Part shown: piece by piece, positions 770 through 63,675 of the stretch
Numbering within the stretch: position 1 is the stretch's first letter
Layout: each line of letters begins with the position of its first letter
Virus record (IMG/VR): IMGVR_UViG_3300042731_008397
Span: 1-64,000 of that record
DNA length: 64,000 nucleotides
Origin: a virus
Reading direction: 5' to 3' (one strand)
Program-made: the position numbers and the translations under genes
Notes under the pieces: model-generated
What the model was told of the DNA's origin: nothing
Databases searched by the model: none
Seen by the model: the letters and a program-made list of their open reading frames with translations, nothing else

Positions 770-911
770 GGTTTTTCTCCTAATGCAAGAAAAAACTTTA
801 CTGGGAAACCGAATCTCTCTTCAAACTCTCCATAAAGTCTCTGATATTGCCTTATAATCGGGGCAACGAAGTTTTTATAAAAGAATTTGTGTAATTTTTA
901 TAGAAAATGAC

Positions 912-960
912 TTGACACTCTCATCATTTGATTATATGGTAGTACAGACGTTACAACAAT
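912..960 (+). promoter_or_regulatory. Early-type promoter with conserved downstream box (copy 1)
   Basis: TTGACA at 912-917 is followed by a TTTGATTATATGG stretch acting as -10 and then GGTAGTACAGACGTTACA. The same arrangement recurs at 4171 and, on the minus strand, near 48980, 50940 and 52530. It ends about 30 bases before the 991 gene, whose leader carries AGGAGGTCAC. Confidence 0.75.
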
Positions 961-990
961 TCACATTCACAATTTTCAGGAGGTCACACT

Positions 991-1221
991 ATGAACCAAC
1001 CACAAGAGCAAAAACCCGATTATATTCACAGTTATGGGCCTGAATCTGATTTAGGCTGGGATGGAGATGAAAGTCCAATCTGGTATGTTACCCTAATGAC
1101 GGACAGAGAAGAAGAGTTAGAAGCGTTTAAATGCTATGATTGGAAGGAAGCGTATGAACTGGGAGACGAATTAGCCGAGAAATACGATGTGGAACACGTC
1201 CCGGAGTGTACGCCAGCATAA
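991..1221 (+). CDS. Small acidic protein, unknown
   Basis: A 76-residue acidic protein starting at an ATG with AGGAGGTCACACT upstream. I recognise no family; it ends ECTPA. It is the first gene behind the conserved early promoter. Its TAA at 1219 lies inside a dispersed hairpin element, and the same reading frame stays open beyond that stop to 1863, so the element may have cut a longer gene or altered this C-terminus. Confidence 0.7.
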   Translation: MNQPQEQKPDYIHSYGPESDLGWDGDESPIWYVTLMTDREEELEAFKCYDWKEAYELGDELAEKYDVEHVPECTPA

Positions 1222-3976: not shown

Positions 3977-4170
3977 ACGTATGTTCTCCTTTTGAGATTA
4001 GTTGGATTGAAATTTCAATTCCTTCTGAGTATAGCAAAACTTTTTGTGGATGTCAACTATACCGCTCTTTATCGAAATTAATCAAAAATTTTTTTAAAAA
4101 ATCTTCGCCCGATACACGGTAAAAACAAGGTTTTCGCCTGATTTTTCCGTAATTTTTTTGCACTTGGCTA

Positions 4171-4214
4171 TTGACATTCTCATCTTTTGATTATATGGTA
4201 GTAAGGACGTTACA
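4171..4214 (+). promoter_or_regulatory. Early-type promoter with conserved downstream box (copy 2)
   Basis: TTGACA at 4171-4176, then TTTTGATTATATGG and GGTAGTAAGGACGTTACA. It is near-identical to copy 1. The leader carries AGGAGGTCACAGC before the ATG at 4249. Confidence 0.75.
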
Positions 4215-4248
4215 AACATTGTTTCCACTACAAATAGGAGGTCACAGC

Positions 4249-4821
4249 ATGACAAAGAAAGAGAAAGCAAACAAAAAACGCAAAGTAACCCGGATCGTCA
4301 ACGGCTTCGGGAATGATAAAGACTGTTTTTATTTAGCAAAGTTAAGCAGAAAATTCAAAGGCAAGGAATATTACGGCGGATACACCCAAAAGACGGTCAA
4401 AGAGCGTTTCACTGATCATGAAAGCGGTAAAGGTTGCGCCTTTTTACGGGCAGCCCAGGAAGCCGGAATTACTTATAAAGTTATTTTCACAGTCCCACGC
4501 CCCGAAAATATGTATTATCTCATCCTGGAATGGGGATTCAAAGAAGCCCGCAAATATAGCAAATTCGATATATTGTTACACGGCGAAAAAGCCCAACAGC
4601 GGGTCGAAGGACTTTCTTTAGATGAACAAAAAAATATTCATATCAAAACACGTGGGAAAAGTATTAAAAATCTAGCCATTGAATTTATGCAAGCAACAAC
4701 CGATAAAGACCCGCAATTATTAGCCAAAACAGCTTTTAACAAGTTTCAAGGCAGAGGAAACCGAACGTATACTTTAAACGACTTTGCAACCTGGGCAGAA
4801 GAAGCAATGATGTCCTTCTAA
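4249..4821 (+). CDS. GIY-YIG-like endonuclease domain protein
   Basis: 190 residues from the ATG preceded by AGGAGGTCACAGC; an earlier in-frame start lies in the promoter and was rejected. FYLAKL at 27-32 and YYGGYTQKTVKERFTDHESG at 41-60 resemble the GIY and YIG strands, the conserved Arg and the following helix of GIY-YIG nucleases. A Glu-containing LILEWGFKEA segment later could supply the metal ligand. The C-terminal part is unassigned. Role could be homing or repair. It is expressed from a strong early promoter, followed by a small gene with the same type of ribosome site. Confidence 0.6.
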   Translation: MTKKEKANKKRKVTRIVNGFGNDKDCFYLAKLSRKFKGKEYYGGYTQKTVKERFTDHESGKGCAFLRAAQEAGITYKVIFTVPRPENMYYLILEWGFKEARKYSKFDILLHGEKAQQRVEGLSLDEQKNIHIKTRGKSIKNLAIEFMQATTDKDPQLLAKTAFNKFQGRGNRTYTLNDFATWAEEAMMSF

Positions 4822-15466: not shown

Positions 15467-16000
15467 ATGAATTTAATCGGGACAAAATTCATTTATGACG
15501 GGATAGTTTACGAAGTTCACCGTAAATGGGATCAAACAGGAGAACAAATAACAGTTTTTTGGGGAGCTTCGCCCGTCAATAAACAAATCTTACATGGAAA
15601 GAAGGAAGTTTTCACATCAGAAGAAATCTTAAAGGCAGAAACCCCGGTACAATTCGGGTTTCAGGCAGAAGAGGAGCTTTTACAGCCGCATACGGTCATT
15701 ATGACCAGCGTGGATTATGGATCGGAAAAATTTGAATATGACACATTAATTGAGGCAACAATGGGGCTCCATCGCCTGATGAAAAACGCTTCGATCCGGA
15801 CAGAACAGGAAAACGAGTGTACCCGTTGGTTTACCTTAAAACGGACGGATCGGATGCAAGAAGAGGACATTTCTGATGGTGAGGAACTTGAATGGAGACC
15901 CCACATACTGGACTATGATAGAGAGGAACGCCCGGTATCAGAATTAGATACGGGCACGGCTGTCAACTATGGGGATAAGAAGTACCCGGAAAGTCTATAA
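15467..16000 (+). CDS. Unknown 177-residue protein
   Basis: ATG after AAAGGAGATTATAACGT. Beta-rich N-terminus (MNLIGTKFIYDGIVYEVHRK), acidic C-terminus. Its last eight codons (from GDKKYPESL) overlap the start of the tracrRNA-like element, so that RNA may be processed from the 3' end of this mRNA. Confidence 0.6.
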   Translation: MNLIGTKFIYDGIVYEVHRKWDQTGEQITVFWGASPVNKQILHGKKEVFTSEEILKAETPVQFGFQAEEELLQPHTVIMTSVDYGSEKFEYDTLIEATMGLHRLMKNASIRTEQENECTRWFTLKRTDRMQEEDISDGEELEWRPHILDYDREERPVSELDTGTAVNYGDKKYPESL

Positions 16001-16140
16001 GCTGACCGGCTATGTGGCGTATTTCACGTCCAGTGTGGGAGGGTTTTCCCTTCCTCCGAATGCTTTCAGAGATTGCCAAATAAAGAACCTTTGAAAGGGA
16101 TTGAAAGAAGCTTCCCCTATCACAAGATGAGGAAATGCCG
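15980..16140 (+). ncRNA. Predicted natural single-guide RNA (tracr-repeat fusion), copy A
   Basis: From AAGTACCCGGAAAG it follows the tracrRNA beside the CRISPR array almost base for base through GCTTTCAGAGATTGCC. Copy A then continues with AACCTTTGAAAGGGATTG and AAAG, a 20/22 match to the 3' part of the CRISPR repeat. CTTTCAGAGATT (about 16065) can pair with AACCTTTGAAAG in 11 of 12 positions across an 11-base loop. The guide would start at 16108 (AAGCTTCCCCTATCACAAGA) and runs into the ribosome site of the next gene. No own promoter of the tracr type is visible. Confidence 0.65.
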
Positions 16141-24639: not shown

Positions 24640-26475
24640 ATGGAATTAGCAGCAAGAACCATTAAAATTGCCTTAACAAATCTGTCGAAACAAGACCGGG
24701 AACATTTAACACTACTCTGTATCCATGCCGCAAGAATCTATAATGCGGCATTATGGTGTTGTCGGCAGCATTATATTAACCCGTCAATAATCCCTGACTG
24801 CCCTGATTGCCTGGTATGCCCATGTAAAGAGCAGTTTGAAACACTCCGATATTCATTGTCAAAAAATAAGATCGCACAACTGGCGGTTCCTGAAGAAATA
24901 CGGGCTAAATTGCGTCCAATTACCAAGCGCAAGGTATTCCGTTCAGAGTTTGAAGAACACCTCAAAGAGTGTTTATCACGGTCTGAAATGACCGTGTATG
25001 GAGAGAAAATCTTTGAATCTTGCCAATATTACGATAGGTTTCTGACAACCTATACGTTAGATTCAAAAGTGCTTCGACACCGGGAGTCTACACGGGTTCA
25101 CTTTGAAATATCTAGCAAAACCGCCCATTATATGGTAGATCAAGCTGTTAAAGATATACGGAATTATGATAAAAGTATCTGGAAATATTTGCAGAAGCAC
25201 CACCTTTCTTTCTTACAGCTTCGGGCAGAGCAAAAAAAGAAGAAGTATCGTGATGCTCCACGAATTCCAGGATATAAAAAAGACCAGCATTATTTAGGCG
25301 AAAACCATAGAAGTGATCAAGCTCCACCATTCGGACGAATTATCGCCGAAATAGGGAATGGGTTCGTTAAAGTTGATGACCGAACATTACGCCTAAGCCT
25401 TTCAAAAACGCTTAAAGATAAAGGCTTTACACCAATTTGTATCCCGATCCCTGAGTGGCTTCAATTTAATGATATTCGGAAACTTCAAATTACTCCGAAA
25501 TTTCGGAGTGAAGAGTTTTCGGTATCATTGACATACCAAGCATCTGTTCCGACAACTACAACGCCTGACAGCATAAGGATAATGGGAATTGATCTTGGGG
25601 TTAATAATCTTGCGGCCTGTGTGGACATGGAGACTCCATTCGCGTTTTTATTCAAAGGATCTTCTGTCAAATCAATCAATTGGTTTTGGAATAAAGAATG
25701 TGCCCGATTACGGGAATGTATGGCAGATCAAGATCCTCGTTCAAAATATAGTGTAACTGAAGAGAGTATCCAACTTTTACAAACCGTTCTTCCTGATGAC
25801 CTATTATTACGGTATAAACAACTTTGTGGACAGTCTTTTGCCACAGCGCAAAAACTCATTTTAGCATGTCATTTAACAGGAGATGAACAGAAGCAATGGC
25901 AACAATTGGTTGTCCCGTTTTCGACTCAATCTCACAAATTTCCACAGTCACGGCAGCTTTACCGAATCACCCGTCGCCGGAATGCCAAAATTGAATATAT
26001 CATGCAACAGGTTGCCAGATATATTGTAGATTACTGCGTTAAGCATCACATCAATACGGTTGTTGTTGGGGTGAACGTCGGATGGAAACAAGGTGTAAAT
26101 ATAGGGAAACGGAATACTCAAAATTTTGTGCAAATCCCGTTTTTACAGTTACGGAATTATCTAAAATATGCCTGCGAGCCGGAAGGAATAGCTTATATTG
26201 AACATGAAGAAAGTTTCACATCTTTATGTTCTTTTTTGGATTATATGGAGATTCCTACGTATGATGGAAGCAACGAACTCCATACATTTTCCAAATCATT
26301 AAAAAAACGCAGGAAACGAGGACTATACCAGACAAATAACGGGACTCATGTTAACGCCGATTGTAACGGAGCCGCTAATATCGCCGTAAAAAGCGGAAAT
26401 TGGCAAGGGGATCGTAGCCAATTCCTTGCTTGTTTACGCTCACCTAAAATAATAAAATTATCAGAAATTTCTTGA
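24640..26475 (+). CDS. TnpB-derived Cas12-like (type V) effector
   Basis: 611 residues, ATG after AAAGGAGATAGCTTT. RuvC-I IRIMGIDLGVNNLAA (Asp318). At the usual RuvC-II place it reads VVVGVNVGWKQGVNIGKR (about 475-491) with Gly where Glu is normal; a Glu is instead in IEHEESFTS (523/524), as known for TnpBs with a rearranged catalytic site. RuvC-III is NADCNGAANI (Asp574). No C-terminal CxxC zinc ribbon is seen, but CPDCLVCPC (54-62) in the N-terminal part may bind metal. It is larger than TnpB (about 400) and lies next to a tracrRNA and a CRISPR array. Expected to be an RNA-guided DNA nuclease. Subtype not assignable by eye; no cas1 or cas2 nearby. Confidence 0.8.
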   Translation: MELAARTIKIALTNLSKQDREHLTLLCIHAARIYNAALWCCRQHYINPSIIPDCPDCLVCPCKEQFETLRYSLSKNKIAQLAVPEEIRAKLRPITKRKVFRSEFEEHLKECLSRSEMTVYGEKIFESCQYYDRFLTTYTLDSKVLRHRESTRVHFEISSKTAHYMVDQAVKDIRNYDKSIWKYLQKHHLSFLQLRAEQKKKKYRDAPRIPGYKKDQHYLGENHRSDQAPPFGRIIAEIGNGFVKVDDRTLRLSLSKTLKDKGFTPICIPIPEWLQFNDIRKLQITPKFRSEEFSVSLTYQASVPTTTTPDSIRIMGIDLGVNNLAACVDMETPFAFLFKGSSVKSINWFWNKECARLRECMADQDPRSKYSVTEESIQLLQTVLPDDLLLRYKQLCGQSFATAQKLILACHLTGDEQKQWQQLVVPFSTQSHKFPQSRQLYRITRRRNAKIEYIMQQVARYIVDYCVKHHINTVVVGVNVGWKQGVNIGKRNTQNFVQIPFLQLRNYLKYACEPEGIAYIEHEESFTSLCSFLDYMEIPTYDGSNELHTFSKSLKKRRKRGLYQTNNGTHVNADCNGAANIAVKSGNWQGDRSQFLACLRSPKIIKLSEIS

Positions 26476-26501
26476 CAACGGATATTTCATACAAGTAATA
26501 T
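26472..26501 (+). promoter_or_regulatory. Promoter of the tracrRNA
   Basis: TTGACA, 18 bases, TAATAT. It overlaps the end of the effector gene. The same promoter (TTGACAAC, GATATT, TAATATGGGAATTACAAG) precedes the fused copy C at 35003. Confidence 0.8.
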
Positions 26502-26507
26502 GGGAAT

Positions 26508-26604
26508 TACAAGTACCCGGAAAGTATGATACTGACCGGCTATGTGGCGTATTTCACGTCCAGTGTGGGAGGGTTTTCCCTTCCTCCGAACGCTTTCAGA
26601 GATT
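26508..26604 (+). ncRNA. Predicted tracrRNA
   Basis: Starts near GGGAATTACAAGTACCCGG. Stem 1 AGTAT/ATACT, then GGCGTATTTCACG with TCCA pairing, then GGGAGGG-TTTT-CCCTTCC, and the anti-repeat CTTTCAGAGATT (26593-26604), a perfect complement of AATCTCTGAAAG in the CRISPR repeat. After it, CCGAGCA and TGCTCGG (26606-26678) can close a further hairpin. Copies A and C share the body with paired changes in stems. Confidence 0.75.
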
Positions 26605-26744
26605 GCCGAGCAGGGGATGCTGACAAAGCAACATTCTGTATCTGCCTACAAACATGGCTAAGACAAAATGATTGCTCGGAGACTATATATAAGGCATTTG
26701 TACCCTTAAAAAGACAAAATTTATAGTTCTTTGACAGCATTTTT

Positions 26745-26813
26745 AGAGATTTGTGCCAGGTGCTCGGAAACAGGAAATTGACTTACGTGATACCGGGCAG
26801 ATAGAAACAAGCA
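26745..26813 (+). promoter_or_regulatory. CRISPR leader, possible weak promoter
   Basis: TTGACT (26778) and TAGAAA 18 bases on could drive the array; -10 match is weak. The stretch holds no gene. Confidence 0.35.
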
Positions 26814-27433
26814 GTAGAAAAGCTAATAAATCTCTGAAAGGGATTGAAAGCTTCTCATACCCGGCAAATTCTGCTTGTAATGCTGTAGAAAAGCTAATAA
26901 ATCTCTGAAAGGGATTGAAAGGACCGGGATTCGTTAACTGTCCAGGAAGCCCGGTTGAGTAGAAAAGCTAATAAATCTCTGAAAGGGATTGAAAGTCCCA
27001 TACCGTTGACGGGAATAGCCCGTCATTGAGTAGAAAAGCTAATAAATCTCTGAAAGGGATTGAAAGTACCAGAATATCCCCTGTTTGCCCGTCAACAATC
27101 GCGTAGAAAAGCTAATAAATCTCTGAAAGGGATTGAAAGGGGGCATAAAAAAGGCGCCCTCGCCAGGACGCCCAAGTAGAAAAGCTAATAAATCTCTGAA
27201 AGGGATTGAAAGCCGCTGATAGATAGCAGATTCCAGATTATAGATTTGGTAGAAAAGCTAATAAATCTCTGAAAGGGATTGAAAGGTTGAAGTAATTGGT
27301 TCATAATTTTCTCCTTAACGTGCGTAGAAAAGCTAATAAATCTCTGAAAGGGATTGAAAGATATTGGTCTGTTAGGCGTTCCCGGTTTATTTCCATGTAG
27401 AAAAGCTAATAAATCTCTGAAAGGGATTGAAAG
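26814..27433 (+). CRISPR. CRISPR array, 9 repeats of 37 bp, 8 spacers
   Basis: Nine identical repeats start at 26814, 26885, 26959, 27030, 27103, 27176, 27249, 27324 and 27397, beginning GTAGAAAAGCTAATAAATCT and ending GGGATTGAAAG. Spacers are 34-38 bases. Transcribed rightward the crRNA has a 5' handle, as in type V. Spacer 5 reversed is a GC hairpin with a T-run (a terminator), spacer 7 reversed holds AAGGAGAAAATTATG (ribosome site and start) and spacer 8 reversed begins ATGGAAATAAACCGG. No match inside this window was seen. Confidence 0.97.
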
Positions 27434-27453
27434 ACTTTGGATACTTCTTTAAA

Positions 27454-28056
27454 ATGATTCTTAATAGAAACCAAGAAATATGTTCTCTCCCGACACGGAC
27501 ACATTTGAGCTTCCAAAATTACATAATCATTGACTATACAACACAAGACACGATTGAATTATCCAAAGATCAATATAATCCGTTTAGACTAGGGAAACTT
27601 CCTATTACTTTAGATACTTCTTTCAATGTGCTTTATGTTGATCTTTTTGCTCTGAACTTCGGACAGAAAGAACCTTTGATGAAACGGGAAAACCGGACAT
27701 GGGTTTCTATTATTTACAAGTGTTCACGGGCGGTGAGAGATGAAATTTTATTATTACCCATTGAGAAAATCCATGCCGAATTTCGGAAAGAACAGTGTCC
27801 TTACCGGACTTGTCAATACTGGCAAAAAACTCCCGGAGTTAACAGAGAGATTTATTGCCTTTTAGCCCGGTATCGGCTTTTGTCTTCATTTGGAGAGGAT
27901 AAAGGCTACACGTTAGAACAAATAAGCCGGATTTTTTCAGTTTGCCGTGAATGGGTAAGACGTATCGAGGACAGCGGGTTACACCGTTTACGCAAAAGAA
28001 AGAAATCTCTGAAAGAGACTGAAAGTAAAGCGAAAGAAAGGAATAAAACATTATGA
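27454..28056 (+). CDS. Sigma-70 region-4-like regulator
   Basis: About 200 residues from ATG 27454; the frame also opens at a TTG in the last CRISPR repeat, which is less likely. The C-terminal part YTLEQISRIFSVCREWVRRI followed by EDSGLHRLRKRKKS matches sigma region 4.2 (TLEEIGxxxGVTRERVRQIE and LxxLR). Regions 2 and 3 are not evident. It might be a phage sigma-like or anti-terminator factor. It is next to the array, and a CRISPR-repeat-like sequence lies in its last codons. The next gene starts at its stop (ATGA). Confidence 0.6.
   Translation: MILNRNQEICSLPTRTHLSFQNYIIIDYTTQDTIELSKDQYNPFRLGKLPITLDTSFNVLYVDLFALNFGQKEPLMKRENRTWVSIIYKCSRAVRDEILLLPIEKIHAEFRKEQCPYRTCQYWQKTPGVNREIYCLLARYRLLSSFGEDKGYTLEQISRIFSVCREWVRRIEDSGLHRLRKRKKSLKETESKAKERNKTL
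28003..28025 (+). repeat. Degenerate CRISPR repeat 3' half inside a gene
   Basis: AAATCTCTGAAAGAGACTGA then AAG: 21 of 23 bases match the 3' end of the CRISPR repeat. The following bases (TAAAGCGAAAGAAAGGAATA) include the next ribosome site. It encodes KKSLKETESK. Confidence 0.6.
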
Positions 28057-35002: not shown

Positions 35003-35032
35003 TTGACAACAGATATTACTTGTATGTAATAT
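35003..35032 (+). promoter_or_regulatory. Promoter of fused guide RNA copy C
   Basis: TTGACA, 18 bases, TAATAT; downstream ATGGGAATTACAAGTACCCG is identical to that of the tracrRNA promoter at 26472. Confidence 0.8.
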
Positions 35033-35038
35033 GGGAAT

Positions 35039-35165
35039 TACAAGTACCCGGAAAGCCTATAGGCTGACCGGCTATGTGGCGTATTTCACGTCCAGCGTGG
35101 GAAGTGTGACTCTTCCTCCAAACTCTTTTTAGAGATTGAAAGCCTACTTTTTCCCGATGATTACG
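35039..35165 (+). ncRNA. Predicted natural single-guide RNA, copy C
   Basis: Body AAGTACCCGGAAAG, AGCCTATAGGCT, GTGGCGTATTTCACGTCCAG as in the tracrRNA. The stem changes to GGGAAG/CTTCC with its partner, and the first stem is AGCC/GGCT where the tracrRNA has AGTAT/ATACT, so pairing is kept. The anti-repeat and repeat are reduced to CTCT-TTTT-AGAG followed directly by ATTGAAAG (ends 35142). The guide begins at 35143 (CCTACTTTTTCCCGATGATT) and runs antisense into the 3' end of the lipoprotein gene. Confidence 0.65.
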
Positions 35166-35965
35166 TTTGAAATAACCAGACCTTTTGGGGCATAACGCCG
35201 TGGGTTAGCTCCCAGTTGGATTTGATGTTTTGTCGGAGCAAACGGCCCATTATACTGCCCTGTCAAGACATGCTCTCCGTCTCTGAACACTAAAACGGTT
35301 GAATTCCCCCACTCGATCCGGAAATGATATTCTTTTTCGGGATCCCAATCTCTGGTGACGTAACCGCTTTCTTCCCACTCTCCCCGGCTTTTGATCTTTG
35401 CTTTAAAGGCGTTTGAAGCGTCTGGACGGTCTTTGATAAAGCCATATTTCCGAATTTCAAAGATATACGGAGCATTGGCGTAATCATAGCCGTCTTCGCC
35501 CGACCACATTGACACCAGAACACTCTTAAACTCTGTTCCCCCGTATAGTTCGTCCTGTTGAAAGCCTTTTGCCGTAAATTCGATATACCCGGAAGCCGTT
35601 GTCGGAATCTCCCAGTGTGCATACCACCAGCGGGATTCTGTAGTATAAACCCCGTCTTTAACTTTTCCATACCGTGTTTCTGCCTGATCAAATCCGATAA
35701 AAAACACATTATCGGGGAGTGGCACCGGCGTAGCGGTCGGTGTGGGAGTCGGAATCTCAGGAGTTTCGGTTGGCTCTGGCGTTACAGTCGGTAACGGGGT
35801 CTCTGTCGGCGTCGGCGTTTCTTCTGGTCCAGGTGTCGGTGTCGTTTCCGGATCAGGTAATGTGTCAATAAAATCTCCGATGTCATCTAATAGCTCCGCG
35901 CAGGCTACCAAAATGCCCATTACAAGGACACAGGTAAGGATAAACAACGTTTTTGACGTTTTCAT
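35144..35965 (-). CDS. Lipoprotein with Pro-Thr-rich linker
   Basis: 273 residues from ATG after GAGGAAGAGTC. Signal TLFILTCVLVMGILVAC with lipobox LVAC, then an acidic stretch, a long Pro-Thr-Glu linker (TPTPGPEETPTPTETPLPTV) at about 45-85, and a beta-rich C-terminal domain with WYAHWEIPTTASGYIEF and FRIEWGNSTVLVFRDGEHVL, which looks like a concanavalin or glucanase-like sandwich. Such PT linkers are common in Chloroflexota. Possibly a host-surface lipoprotein. Its stop lies in the guide of copy C. Confidence 0.75.
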   Translation of the reverse strand: MKTSKTLFILTCVLVMGILVACAELLDDIGDFIDTLPDPETTPTPGPEETPTPTETPLPTVTPEPTETPEIPTPTPTATPVPLPDNVFFIGFDQAETRYGKVKDGVYTTESRWWYAHWEIPTTASGYIEFTAKGFQQDELYGGTEFKSVLVSMWSGEDGYDYANAPYIFEIRKYGFIKDRPDASNAFKAKIKSRGEWEESGYVTRDWDPEKEYHFRIEWGNSTVLVFRDGEHVLTGQYNGPFAPTKHQIQLGANPRRYAPKGLVISNVIIGKK

Positions 35966-42034: not shown

Positions 42035-42076
42035 AGTTACTTAAAATCTATAAAAATATTCTAAGTTCTTTGTCAT
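42035..42076 (+). repeat. 42-bp inverted repeat, left copy
   Basis: AGTTACTTAAAATCTATAAA to CTTTGTCAT; its perfect inverse is 45248-45289. It bounds the IS607 island. Confidence 0.9.
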
Positions 42077-42080
42077 ACCT

Positions 42081-42230
42081 GACTTCATAGCCGGTTATCG
42101 GCGTGAAGACGCGCCAATTCGATACAGGTACGGGCACTCCGCGACGACGTTCCCAGTTGCGGACCCTGTCACCCCAACACCGACGTCAGGGAACCGTACT
42201 CCCCACAGGATGGGGAGCCTTACAGGACTT
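42081..42230 (-). mobile_element. IS right-end (omega-RNA-like) element, copy P1
   Basis: On the minus strand: CTCCCCATCCTGTGGGGAG hairpin, GTACGGTTCCCTGAC, then CGTCTTCACGCCGATAACCG and GCTATGAAGTC. Same element at 57702 and 63535. Fold and position at gene ends fit a TnpB transposon right end, whose transcript would be the guide RNA; no tnpB is attached here. Confidence 0.5.
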
Positions 42231-42445
42231 TTATAGATAGCGGCGCAAGAAAACCCATTCAATCCCTGAACATACCGAAAGGCGGTCAATGGTGGGATCG
42301 CCCGAAATTCTAAGGGAGGGGGGGTGTCCCCCAGTTCTCCCTTCTCGATCACCCATTTCCAGCCGCCAAACGGTCAGCGGTGCTTTATTAAATAATTGAA
42401 ATTAATTAGGTAGCCCACTAAATACTTAACCAGAAAGGAGACAAG

Positions 42446-48860: not shown

Positions 48861-48935
48861 CTAACCAATCAATAACGCTTGGGCTGCCTCTAAAACGTCT
48901 TGTTTTAACTCTTCTATTCTTTCCTGTCTTGTCAT
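48861..48935 (-). CDS. 24-residue leader-like protein
   Basis: MTRQERIEELKQDVLEAAQA, ATG after CAGGAGGTCACAAC, right behind the early promoter. A short helical protein or a leader. Confidence 0.45.
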   Translation of the reverse strand: MTRQERIEELKQDVLEAAQALLIG

Positions 48936-48959
48936 GTTGTGACCTCCTGAAAATTGTGA

Positions 48960-49014
48960 ACGTGAATGACTGTAACGTCTGTACTACCATATAATCAAAT
49001 GATGAGAATGTCAA
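48960..49014 (-). promoter_or_regulatory. Early-type promoter with conserved downstream box (copy 3)
   Basis: On the minus strand TTGACATTCTCATCATTTGA, then TTATATGGTAGTACAGACGT and TACA. Same as copy 1 for over 60 bases, including CAGGAGGTCACA. Upstream AT-rich stretch AGAGCAAAAAAATTTA is shared with the 52.5-kb copy. Confidence 0.8.
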
Positions 49015-49116
49015 TAGCTAGAGCAAAAAAATTTATATTTTTTTCAAGAAAAATGTTCCTGAGCCGAATAGCGGGCGAAGATTTTTTTGATTTTTCCGCA
49101 TTTTTTCTTGAGTGCT

Positions 49117-50633: not shown

Positions 50634-50900
50634 CTAAAGAATTTCTTGATCTAACGCAGACTTAACAGCTTTGGCCCCAAATTCTTTCGTAATGCCTAAG
50701 TCCACAGCAAGATCAAACAATAAATACCTCATAAATGATTTCATGTCCCGTCCTGTTTTTTGACAGGATACTTGAGACTTATGATCATAAAAAAGGGCCG
50801 ACTCAAAAATTTCAGTATCGTCCGACTGTTGTAAAGCATTTAAGATACGTAAAAGAATGGTTCGGTTAGAAACTTGATGGTTGTTATGATGTTTTTTCAT
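50634..50900 (-). CDS. Unknown 88-residue protein
   Basis: MKKHHNNHQVSNRTILLRIL, ATG after CAGGAGGTCACATC. First gene of an operon with the conserved early promoter. Confidence 0.6.
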   Translation of the reverse strand: MKKHHNNHQVSNRTILLRILNALQQSDDTEIFESALFYDHKSQVSCQKTGRDMKSFMRYLLFDLAVDLGITKEFGAKAVKSALDQEIL

Positions 50901-50937
50901 GATGTGACCTCCTGTTAACGGTTAAACTGAAATATTG

Positions 50938-50979
50938 TAACGTCTGTACTACCATAAAATCGAAATATGATAATGTCAA
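50938..50979 (-). promoter_or_regulatory. Early-type promoter with conserved downstream box (copy 4)
   Basis: Minus strand TTGACATTATCATATTTCGA then TTTTATGGTAGTACAGACGT and TACA. Confidence 0.75.
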
Positions 50980-51069
50980 GAGATTTTTTTCGGAAAATTT
51001 CTCTTGACCGCTTAACGGGAACGCTCAGGAGCTATTTTTTACGTAGTCCTAAACGTCCCCGGTATTGCC

Positions 51070-52222: not shown

Positions 52223-52491
52223 TTAATAATTGACAATAACTTCGTTGACATAATAGAGATTATGCTTGACTTGCTTAAACTGAACGATTCTTTTATTGAT
52301 CCACACTTCGATAAAAATGTCAGCTTTGCCCGTTACGAAGTCAGGGATCTCTTTCCCCCGTCATGAAAGAGGTTTGATGCTTCTCTGGTGTGTAAATCCC
52401 AGGGATGAAATTCGTCAAGAACTTCGGCAACTTCAAAAAGCCCTTGTTCAGATGTTTCGATTAATTTATTTAAAATTTGGCTTAAAATCAT
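52223..52491 (-). CDS. Gene with candidate programmed -1 frameshift
   Basis: ATG 52491 after AGGAGGTCACAA. The zero frame (MILSQILNKLIETSEQGLFE...) stops at 52333. At GGGAAAG (52351-52357), read G-GGA-AAG, a -1 slip gives GAG-ATC and EIPDFVTGKADIFIEVWINK on to NEVIVNY at 52223. GGGAAAG is the known lambda G-GT slip site. The joined product is about 89 residues. A simple one-base loss in the G-run would look the same. Confidence 0.5.
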
Positions 52492-52526
52492 TTGTGACCT
52501 CCTGTTATCAGTGAAAAAACAATGTT

Positions 52527-52570
52527 TGTAACGTCGTTACTACCATATAATCAAAGTATGAAAATGTCAA
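52527..52570 (-). promoter_or_regulatory. Early-type promoter with conserved downstream box (copy 5)
   Basis: Minus strand TTGACATTTTCATACTTTGA then TTATATGGTAGTAACGACGT and TACA. Upstream it shares about 80 bases with copy 3. Confidence 0.8.
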
Positions 52571-52716
52571 TAGCCAGAGCAAAAAAATTTACATTTTTTT
52601 TCAAAAAAAATGTTCCTGAGCCGTCTTACGGGCGAATTTTTTTGGAAATATTTTCCTGAAATTTGCTCTTTTTTAAGGCATCTGAAGGATTGAAATTTTT
52701 ATTAAATAAATAAAGC

Positions 52717-54385: not shown

Positions 54386-54439
54386 AATGATTTAAATAGT
54401 ATCTATCGGTTAAAGGTGTGCTACACAGAAGGTGAAGAA

Positions 54440-55285
54440 ATGAAAAAAGGTCTGATTGTTGGTGTTGACAAATATCGAAACCCGGCATGGAATCTGCAAG
54501 GTTGCACAATGGATGCTGCCGTTATGCGGGGGATGCTACAAGATCATTTTGGTTTTTCTGGAGAAAGTCTTCGCGTATTATTAAACGAACGGGCAACAAA
54601 GCGGGGCATTGAAGACCGGTTAATGTGGCTGGTCAAAGACGCCCAAAAAGGGGATAGTCTGGTTTTCTTTTTTGCTGGACACGGCTCACAAGTTCGGGAT
54701 CGGGACGGAGATGAATTAAAAGACCATCTTGACGAAATTCTTTGTCCGACTGACCTTGACTGGGATGATCCGTTATCAGATGATATCCTCCATACATATT
54801 TCAATATGCTGCCTACCGGCGTCTTGTTGACGGTCATTTTCGATTGTTGCCATTCCGGGACGGGAACACGGTCATTAGGAGAAGGCGGGTTTAGCGGGCC
54901 TCCTCGCCCATTTTTGGATGATGATGGTTACGAGAAAACCCGTTATTTACCACCTCCACTTGACATAGAATACCGGACAAGAGGCGTATCACTGGAAAAT
55001 ACTAATGAATCGGGCGCGGTCAATCACTCTTCGATAAGACATGTCTTTTTTGCGGCTTGCGCTGCCCATCAAGAGGCGAAAGAGAAACGGATCAAACGTC
55101 AGGTCAGGGGAGCATTTTCATATTACCTGGGACACGTCTTGAAACGGGCAAACTGGCAAATTACTCCGTATCAGGCATTACAACGGGTACGGGCACGGTT
55201 GTCCGATAATCGGATATACCAGACTCCTCAGTTAGAAGGACCGCCCGCCCTTCATACGAACCAAATCTTTTCACTTGAGAAATAG
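54440..55285 (+). CDS. Metacaspase / caspase-like peptidase C14
   Basis: 281 residues. MKKGLIVGVDKYRNPAWNLQ at the start, then DSLVFFFAGHGSQVRDRDGD (His81) and LLTVIFDCCHSGTGTRSLG (Cys137) give the catalytic pair. YLPPPLDIEYRTRGVSL and a FAACAAHQEAKE segment follow, as in type I metacaspases without a prodomain. Cuts after Arg or Lys. Position after the DpdA fragment and before a ParB-like gene, in a rightward operon. Phage-borne caspases are unusual. Confidence 0.88.
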   Translation: MKKGLIVGVDKYRNPAWNLQGCTMDAAVMRGMLQDHFGFSGESLRVLLNERATKRGIEDRLMWLVKDAQKGDSLVFFFAGHGSQVRDRDGDELKDHLDEILCPTDLDWDDPLSDDILHTYFNMLPTGVLLTVIFDCCHSGTGTRSLGEGGFSGPPRPFLDDDGYEKTRYLPPPLDIEYRTRGVSLENTNESGAVNHSSIRHVFFAACAAHQEAKEKRIKRQVRGAFSYYLGHVLKRANWQITPYQALQRVRARLSDNRIYQTPQLEGPPALHTNQIFSLEK

Positions 55286-57494: not shown

Positions 57495-57696
57495 TTTCGA
57501 TAATCTCCTTAAGCCGGGCATAAAGGAGCTTTGTTTCATCTTCCGTAAGCTGGATATATGTGGCCTGCCCGTTATCATGAAATTCTATAGCTTTAATCTT
57601 GACAATTTGGGCACTTTTCCCCGGTATTTCTTCAAAAATCACCGCCCGTCCTGTAGCAAAAAAGATTGGTCTATATAGATAGTTTCCTTCTGTCAT
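57487..57696 (-). CDS. Unknown 69-residue protein
   Basis: MTEGNYLYRPIFFATGRAVI; longer frame crosses the IS element. Beta-rich then LTEDETKLLYARLKEIIENE. Lies between queD and queE. Unknown. Confidence 0.5.
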   Translation of the reverse strand: MTEGNYLYRPIFFATGRAVIFEEIPGKSAQIVKIKAIEFHDNGQATYIQLTEDETKLLYARLKEIIENE

Positions 57697-57701
57697 AAAA
57701 A

Positions 57702-57849
57702 TCCTGTAAGGCTCCCCATCTTGTGGGGAGTACGGTTCCCTGACCTGGGTACAGGGGTGTCCGTACCTGCAAGTGGGAACGTCCTCGCAGGGTGTCCGTA
57801 CCTGCATCCGTGTGGCGCGTCTTCACGCCGATAACCGGCTATGAAGTCC
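57702..57849 (+). mobile_element. IS right-end (omega-RNA-like) element, copy P2
   Basis: TAAGGCTCCCCATCTTGTGG, GTACGGTTCCCTGACCTG, AACGTCCTCGCAGGGTGTC, then CTTCACGCCGATAACCGGCT. Same as 42081 (inverted) and 63535. Its last bases give queD its stop codon. Confidence 0.55.
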
Positions 57850-58243
57850 GGTAGCAGACATAACTTGAAGAAGTTTCCCAAAACCGGATTTCGATAATAG
57901 GTAACCCTGCTTCCTTCCCGTAGTTAAAAGCCAATTTGGCTAAATATTCTGCTGTGGGGTTTTCTTCGGCACAAGTAACAGCTTGTCCGTGCTCTTGTAA
58001 TATCGGAGCAAGTGGGTCGTCCTGACGCAGGATGGTTTTATGATCAAAATTCGTCTCAACCCATCTTGCCATAGTCCTTTTAATGTCTCTGAAATCAACG
58101 GAAAGGCTTAAGGAGTCAAGATTTTTTGTTTCAACAATAATTTCGAGCCTTCCGTTGTGTCCATGTAGTTTGCAACATTTTCCGTTATAACCCATCAGCC
58201 TGTGGGCATAGCAGAAGTCAATGAACTTTACAGCTTGGTACAT
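57839..58243 (-). CDS. queD: QueD, 6-carboxy-tetrahydropterin synthase
   Basis: 134 residues. AHRLMGYNGKCCKLHGHNGR has the His triad and Cys of QueD; VDFRDIKRTMARWVETNFDH and ENPTAEYLAKLAF follow. Makes CPH4 from dihydroneopterin triphosphate. The final residues (CYRTS) are coded by the IS element P2, so the C-terminus is slightly altered. Confidence 0.88.
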   Translation of the reverse strand: MYQAVKFIDFCYAHRLMGYNGKCCKLHGHNGRLEIIVETKNLDSLSLSVDFRDIKRTMARWVETNFDHKTILRQDDPLAPILQEHGQAVTCAEENPTAEYLAKLAFNYGKEAGLPIIEIRFWETSSSYVCYRTS

Positions 58244-63244: not shown

Positions 63245-63675
63245 TATAAGCTAACTCCACATTAATATTAGCATCCTTGACGTACTCCCAGGGCTGAAGC
63301 ACCTGGGATTCTGGGGTCAAGCAGCGGTTGCCTCACTCAATGGATGTCTAACACCGCCTTACCCAATGCGTTGACGCCCCAACGCTTTTAAAAAATCAAG
63401 AAATTTTTGTCGAAATTCATCCCTTGGCTAAAGCCATAGAAGGGGCTTTCTTTCGACAGGTCCTGTAACTGATGGCAATGTAATCCGTTAAATTCCTTAT
63501 ATTCGTTATCTGTCGGTTGATGTATCACAATAAGCCCTGTAAGGCTCCCCATCCTGTGGGGAGTACGGTTCCCTGACCTGGATACAAGGGTGACAGGGCC
63601 TGCAAGTGGGACCGTCCTCGCAGGGTGTCAATACCTGCATCCATACGGCACGTCCTTATCCCGATAAGCGGATTA
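63245..63675 (+). mobile_element. IS200/IS605-derived element with right end (P3)
   Basis: 63290-63480 has CCCAGGGCTGAAGCACCTGG and AAGAAATTTTTG with CCTTGGCTAAAGCCATAGAA, a transposon-end fold; 63535-63675 repeats element P2 (GTAAGGCTCCCCATCCTGTG and onward to CCGATAAGCGG). No transposase: MITE- or PATE-like. It stops at the 3' end of the next gene. Confidence 0.5.

Follow-up and report, generated by a model that had tools for sequence, protein, structure and literature searches.

The window analysed here, a stretch of 64,000 nucleotides, corresponds to bases 1-64000 of the virus record IMGVR_UViG_3300042731_008397, which has a length of 132,054 bp and encodes the terminase, portal, tape measure, head protease, DnaG, DnaB and SbcC/SbcD proteins of a tailed phage. 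At positions 24640-27433 the plus strand holds, in this order, the gene of a TnpB-derived Cas12-like effector, a promoter, a trans-activating RNA (tracrRNA) and an array of clustered regularly interspaced short palindromic repeats (CRISPR). The initial annotation had described this region as a minimal, phage-borne type V CRISPR locus forming one unit. The phage setting was borne out by phage-type genes both near the locus and across the record. No match to Cas1 or Cas2 was detected in the whole 132-kb record, in agreement with the annotated lack of cas1 and cas2; for cas4, also listed as absent, no search aimed at Cas4 alone was made. The description as minimal and as one unit did not hold, because three further guide-RNA genes with the same scaffold were found unlinked to the locus: one lies 10.5 kb upstream of it, another 8.5 kb downstream and the third at a distance of 78 kb.

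The effector gene (24640-26475, plus strand) codes for a protein of 611 amino acids. OrfB_IS605 and Cas12f1-like domains were recognized, with PF01385 and PF07282 scoring above cut-off, and the guided-TnpB model NF040570 was matched at 103.5 bits, barely above its cut-off of 100. The RuvC-II glutamate is absent from its usual place (VVVGVN, residues 474-479) and sits in the motif EHEESFTS (residues 521-528). This relocated arrangement is named Ealt and is also found in Fanzors (PMC10711439). The aspartate-glutamate-aspartate (D-E-D) triad of RuvC is complete (D318, E523/E524 and D574), and D318, E524 and D574 were, together with the adjoining residues, invariant or nearly so in a comparison with 44 TnpB relatives. 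The C-terminal zinc finger is missing, with no CxxC motif beyond residue 60. Two inserts are present, one of about 100 amino acids after the first helix (about residues 49-146) and one of about 70 amino acids between RuvC-I and RuvC-II (about residues 362-435).

The relatives found were TnpBs only, mostly of 410-460 amino acids and with 28-35% identity to the effector. They were studied as 159 fetched TnpB loci, taken from the best 80 of each of two scans, the genome-scan matches being those listed. The two inserts occurred in none of the 159, and none had a CRISPR array of its own. Repeats near the gene were detected in two loci, corresponding to a tandem duplication in one case (L045) and to a different array, 4.8 kb off, in the other (L039). 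The latter is a phage CRISPR array with repeat CTTTTAGAAGTATGTAATTTTGCATAGGTGTAAAG, situated near an Ealt TnpB at L039:10597-10822 (IMGVR_UViG_3300037249_000806). A sample of 399 genomes, drawn from the phylum to which the nearest TnpB belongs, yielded no relative of the effector, repeat, sigma-like protein or scaffold. In the phylogenetic tree the effector was nested within the Ealt TnpBs (support of 96 in the Shimodaira-Hasegawa-like approximate likelihood ratio test), on a long branch that leaves its nearest neighbour unsure. The annotation of a 611-residue TnpB-derived protein is thereby confirmed by the open reading frame, the domains, NF040570 and the tree. A structural model obtained with AlphaFold2 had a mean predicted local distance difference test score (pLDDT) of 75 and a predicted template modelling score of 0.68. 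When this model was used in a fold search, AsCas12f was the best match (8j3r, E=3e-12), followed by TnpB and other compact Cas12 structures. Judged from these comparisons, the effector is predicted to have arisen separately, from a zinc-finger-less TnpB of the Ealt group. It shares 30-35% identity, the RuvC layout, the relocated glutamate and the lack of a zinc finger with these IS605-type proteins (the GxNxxWKQ / EESYTSK / NADxNGA group), but differs from them in its length (611 instead of 410-460 amino acids), the two inserts, the CRISPR array, the split guide and the absence of tnpA and transposon ends.

The general features of type V systems are present, namely a single RuvC effector with D-E-D residues and an adjacent array, while guided cleavage is a prediction. 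In order to place the effector, known subtypes were compared. Type V-F was rejected on the basis of the family profile (NF049972, 32.9 bits against a cut-off of 450), of the PADLOC Cas12f profile (39 bits, plain TnpBs of the group giving values as good as 2e-19) and of the lack of the CxxC zinc finger of the target nucleic-acid-binding domain after residue 60. The V-U2 effector from phage CL131 was rejected as kin, with 22 bits (E=0.04) for the best local alignment and an identity of 15% in the alignment, and type V-U3 was rejected since its Cas12u3 profile gave 20.9 bits, TnpBs reaching 5.6e-17 on it. For V-M (Cas12m), CasLambda, Cas12o and V-K, the similarity at the fold level was below that of Cas12f, with no sequence match to solved members. 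An IS605/IS607 transposon would fit the Ealt RuvC core, but no transposase was found among the neighbour genes searched, nor a shared left end. A dCas12f-sigma system did not fit, since the triad is intact and the neighbouring protein matches sigma region 4 only, not regions 2 and 4 of the extracytoplasmic function type. On the PADLOC Cas12 profiles, plain TnpBs of the group scored better than the effector, which upholds the earlier statement that no named subtype fits; in the tree, proposed as a check together with the profile search, the effector fell among the Ealt TnpBs. Cas12f resembles the effector in its fold, providing the best structural matches, and in the use of a tracrRNA with a CRISPR RNA (crRNA). 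However, the effector has the Ealt instead of the canonical glutamate, lacks the zinc finger and fits the profile no better than TnpBs do.

The array (26814-27433, plus strand) consists of nine identical 37-nt repeats, GTAGAAAAGCTAATAAATCTCTGAAAGGGATTGAAAG, starting at 26814, 26885, 26959, 27030, 27103, 27176, 27249, 27324 and 27397, with eight different spacers of 34-38 nt; the last repeat ends at 27433. Between the effector gene and the array, a promoter TTGACA-18-TAATAT (26472-26501, plus strand) overlaps the effector stop codon. It is followed by the tracrRNA scaffold (26511-26604, plus strand), which comprises stem-loops CCGG/CCGG, GGCG.. and GGGAGGG.. and then the anti-repeat; the transcript may extend to about 26740. 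The anti-repeat CTTTCAGAGATT (26593-26604) is 12 nt long and fully complementary to the repeat. The best duplex of repeat and tracrRNA was estimated at -25.9 kcal/mol, compared with a mean of -16.2 kcal/mol for dinucleotide shuffles, of which 3 in 1000 equalled it. Both the nine perfect repeats and the promoter with tracrRNA at the effector 3' end are in good agreement with the initial annotation. It might be argued that a TnpB gene came to lie by chance beside an unrelated CRISPR array, given that four further TnpBs are encoded by the phage and that phages can carry arrays. This explanation is hardly credible, as the promoter and the anti-repeat lie exactly between gene and array, the scaffold 3' end is homologous to the repeat 3' end, and the large inserts are found in none of the fetched TnpBs.

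When the duplex search was extended across the window, six of the 499 search windows reached the level of -25.9 kcal/mol. The top two were a degenerate repeat at 28000 and a site named sgA, and it was in this way that the single guides were noticed. Searching for degenerate repeats revealed three extra copies of the tracrRNA scaffold in the same genome, named sgA, sgB and sgC; the blastn E-values for the set were 1e-40, 8e-36 and 3e-22. In each copy the scaffold continues into a repeat-like 3' end and then into a unique predicted guide, the layout being a tracr body, a hairpin, a repeat-like end ...ATTGAAAG and unique sequence at the guide position. The sgA scaffold (15980-16107, plus strand; blastn 92.8% over 111 nt, E=1e-40) joins a tracr-like body to the 3' end CTTTGAAAGGGATTGAAAG, which differs in one base from the last 19 of the repeat. 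Its predicted guide (16108-16140, plus strand), AAGCTTCCCCTATCACAAGATGAGGAAATGCCG, stands directly after ATTGAAAG, as in the array, with an approximate 3' end. The sgB scaffold (35042-35142, plus strand) is intergenic, no open reading frame of at least 60 amino acids overlapping it; here the tracr-like body is joined via the hairpin CTCTTTTTAGAG to ATTGAAAG, and the predicted guide is CCTACTTTTTCCCGATGATTACGTTTGAAATAA (35143-35175, plus strand; 3' end approximate). The sgC scaffold, again a tracr-like body with a repeat-like end, lies on the minus strand at record positions 104510-104622, 78 kb from the locus.

Two blocks, one of 17 nt (TGACCGGCTATGTGGCG) and one of 13 nt (ATTTCACGTCCAG), were invariant in all four scaffold copies. 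Elsewhere the copies differ yet keep the hairpins, the first stem being AGTAT/ATACT, AGCC/GGCT or GGCA/TGTT. A covariance model (R1) was trained on sgA, sgC and the tracrRNA joined to the repeat by an artificial GAAA linker, while sgB was held out. A cmsearch with R1 found the held-out sgB at 90.5 bits (E=3.3e-22); sgA scored 137.5 bits, being one of the training sequences of the model. Over the 132 kb, exactly four scaffold copies and nothing else of note were detected. Of the proposed pair cells, 98.9% were standard pairs, and in two pairs both partners had changed; the pairing dropped to 50-61% when the partners were slid by one column. In each of the three cases one RNA thus unites a tracr-like body, a hairpin joining anti-repeat and repeat, and a guide. 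From their sequence and structure, sgA, sgB and sgC are predicted to be natural single guides. The scaffold belongs to the effector, since the omegaRNA end of a canonical TnpB of the same phage differs from it and no R1 copy was found beside the other four TnpB genes.

The promoter of sgB (TTGACA-18-TAATAT, 35003-35032, plus strand) has the same hexamers and spacing as that of the tracrRNA, while the 18 intervening bases differ; both would place the RNA start at approximately the first base of the scaffold. No such promoter was observed for sgA and sgC, which are each located at the 3' end of a gene in the same orientation and, for these reasons, would be cut from mRNA ends like omegaRNAs. One alternative is that the fused copies are leftover right ends of IS605-like elements of the TnpB ancestor of the effector, so that the CRISPR locus alone works. 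A fused scaffold with a unique flank does resemble a TnpB right end, and the genome contains many other dispersed intergenic repeats, four other TnpBs and a trans copy of the canonical omegaRNA, with a nearby duplicated piece that is possibly a left end (63277-63468). Nevertheless, no shared left end was found upstream of the copies, the sgB promoter kept its hexamers and spacing although the bases between drifted, the hairpins survive sequence change, and remnants need not hold the core blocks constant. This origin is therefore considered unlikely.

In TnpB omegaRNAs the guide equals the flanking DNA. All three single guides are likewise flanking DNA, and those of sgA and sgC cover the start of the next gene. 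These features would also be expected from TnpB-like homing, in which each single guide corresponds to its own insertion flank, cuts empty alleles in related phages and spreads the insert, the array having been acquired later. Against this explanation, an empty site is not known from any related phage, nor is there a left end or transposase nearby, and it is regarded as rather improbable. For the single guides, three roles come into consideration: they may work as guides, direct homing to the sites where they are inserted, or be remnants.

Taken together, these findings make it fairly likely that the phage encodes a type V (Cas12) DNA nuclease guided by RNA, with two guide formats whose function is predicted. 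The effector would bind the tracrRNA paired with crRNAs from the array on the one hand, and the undivided single guides on the other. It would recognize targets with a 5' protospacer adjacent motif and cut them. The crRNAs of the array would need the tracrRNA and the dispersed RNAs nothing further. One effector with two guide formats is probably the most economical reading. The array would contain guides against invaders met before, its spacers having been acquired through Cas1-Cas2 in trans or inherited. For the single guides, a role as fixed guides like trans-acting omegaRNAs is predicted, with host sequences, rival-phage sequences or alleles lacking the insertion as their targets. The phage would likely benefit by excluding competing elements from the shared host; the role proposed earlier, a weapon against rival phages, is plausible as a putative one. 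For phage biology, this suggests a programmable array alongside fixed, dispersed guides.

Several points weigh against this reading. In the AlphaFold2 model, insert 1 was poorly predicted (pLDDT about 45). The scaffold structure was derived from three sequences, and one of the shuffle controls for covariation, control (a), was weak (113/500). Neither the effector, among the matches listed, nor the scaffold was found in a second genome in IMG/VR, GTDB contigs, INPHARED or PLSDB; the finding concerns a single genome. Spacer targets were absent from INPHARED phages, plasmids, three IMG/VR spacer-seed scans and the phage itself. With regard to the target part, no targets were found for the guides of sgA, sgB and sgC and no self-target within the phage, the sgA guide matching nowhere in its own genome at up to 4 mismatches in 20. 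A match of spacer 7 to L181 extended over 20 nt and stopped there, and was attributed to chance.

It has been proposed that the tracrRNA and crRNA stem from the splitting of the omegaRNA, which is a natural single guide (PMC10097598). The layout of sgA, sgB and sgC, with a tracr-like part, a short loop, a crRNA-like part and a guide, fits the one described there; in contrast to TnpB omegaRNAs, the undivided RNAs found here lie apart from the effector gene, in a genome that also encodes the split form. The step from the TnpB guide to tracrRNA and crRNA has so far been argued by comparing different systems, whereas both guide forms with one plausible effector in one genome make the splitting directly testable. 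The undivided guides were favoured as the earlier form because of the TnpB origin of the effector, although a secondary fusion instead of splitting is possible. The locus might thus be a living intermediate between TnpB and Cas12, in which one effector uses trans omegaRNA-type guides and a split tracrRNA and array from the same scaffold, in an Ealt lineage without a CRISPR effector among the sources searched; we consider the chances of this to be evenly balanced. If true, the Ealt TnpB lineage would be added to those from which CRISPR effectors arose, and a compact nuclease using a new scaffold would become available.

TranC transposon-CRISPR intermediates, reportedly presented by Jin and co-workers in Cell in 2025 (doi 10.1016/j.cell.2025.09.004), are said to be effectors that derive from TnpB and stand between it and Cas12, the splitting of the guide RNA being the key step. 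In the present case, both guide formats are encoded side by side in one phage genome. Phage-borne V-U loci without adaptation genes are already known, as far as described in PMC6293099 and PMC12607003. The V-U2 locus of Aphanizomenon phage CL131 similarly has a TnpB-like effector beside an array and no adaptation genes (PMC6293099), but belongs to another TnpB branch, has another repeat and no reported tracrRNA. The V-U, Cas12f and Cas12m-like phage loci from landfill viromes are likewise described as pairing a compact type V effector with an adjacent array and as lacking spacer acquisition genes (PMC12607003); in the accessible portion of that source, compared by description only, tracr-scaffold single guides are not mentioned. 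The distinctive feature here is the coexistence of guide formats, phage-borne compact type V loci and TnpB-to-Cas12 intermediates being known already.

Immediately past the array lies a gene with a sigma-70 region 4 (27427-28056, plus strand; PF04545, E=1.4e-7), which would encode 209 amino acids from the TTG at 27427 or 200 from the ATG at 27454. No Pfam domain beyond region 4 was detected. Its product may be a candidate partner of the effector or an ordinary phage regulator. In dCas12f-sigma systems a nuclease-dead Cas12f acts with a sigma factor, and by analogy RNA-guided gene control instead of cutting could be envisaged, with the region 4 protein as partner. The location of this gene, a dCas12f structure among the fold matches, and the reverse complements of spacer 7 (a ribosome-binding site and ATG) and spacer 8 (ATG first) speak for it. 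On the contrary, the RuvC triad is intact, the sigma-like protein has region 4 only, such regulators are frequent in phages, and dCas12f received lower scores than active Cas12f, both by sequence and by fold. Gene control is consequently quite improbable, and a cutting nuclease is the preferred interpretation.

The degenerate repeat (window 27989-28025), which matches 23 of 26 core bases, lies 556 bp past the array, where the sigma-like gene has its 3' end, and may be an array relic or a repeat-derived regulator. The segment after the last repeat (27434-27453) matches the sigma-like gene at 27607-27626 in 18 of 20 bases, and none of 108 shuffled trials gave 3 mismatches or fewer. This could be a local duplication as likely as a self-directed regulatory guide. 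Save for this partial match, no convincing self-targets were found. Relatives of the repeat and the sigma-like protein were absent from the four databases named above.

Among the spacers, spacer 5 (window 27140-27175) carries, on the minus strand, a hairpin resembling an intrinsic terminator. Spacer 7 (27286-27323) reads AAGGAG..ATG and spacer 8 (27361-27396) starts with ATG, both as reverse complements. These features of the three spacers suggest protospacers located where genes end and where they start. Inside a caspase-family (Peptidase_C14) gene at window 54416-55285, a match to the first 20 nt of spacer 4 was observed, with 3 mismatches and possibly by chance.

In the rest of the record, an Rfam scan gave a tRNA-Cys as sole match at the gathering score. 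The SbcC-like protein was nearest to that of a Moorella phage at 32% identity, a value too weak to infer the host. The canonical TnpB (record 92971-94119) has a classical omegaRNA end, ...CCCTGGGAGTACGTCAA; the trans copy of this end, 30 kb away at record 63277-63468, is accompanied by a piece resembling the TnpB upstream region. A second structured element without Rfam match occurs in eight dispersed copies of about 130 nt (record 42063-42234 and 107822-107949 on the plus strand; 57695-57866, 63532-63671, 64668-64804, 100052-100177, 105411-105533 and 107443-107567 on the minus strand). Its conserved 3' end, GGTCAGGGAACCGTACTCCCCACAAGATGGGGAGCCTTACAGGA, is followed by unique sequence, and it is possibly another guide-like or omegaRNA-like RNA family. 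A dispersed element of about 100 nt was also observed at window 904-995, 4151-4267, 48919-49089, 50890-50987 and 52488-52644; on the reverse strand it reads as a strong promoter, a leader and a ribosome-binding site ahead of start codons.
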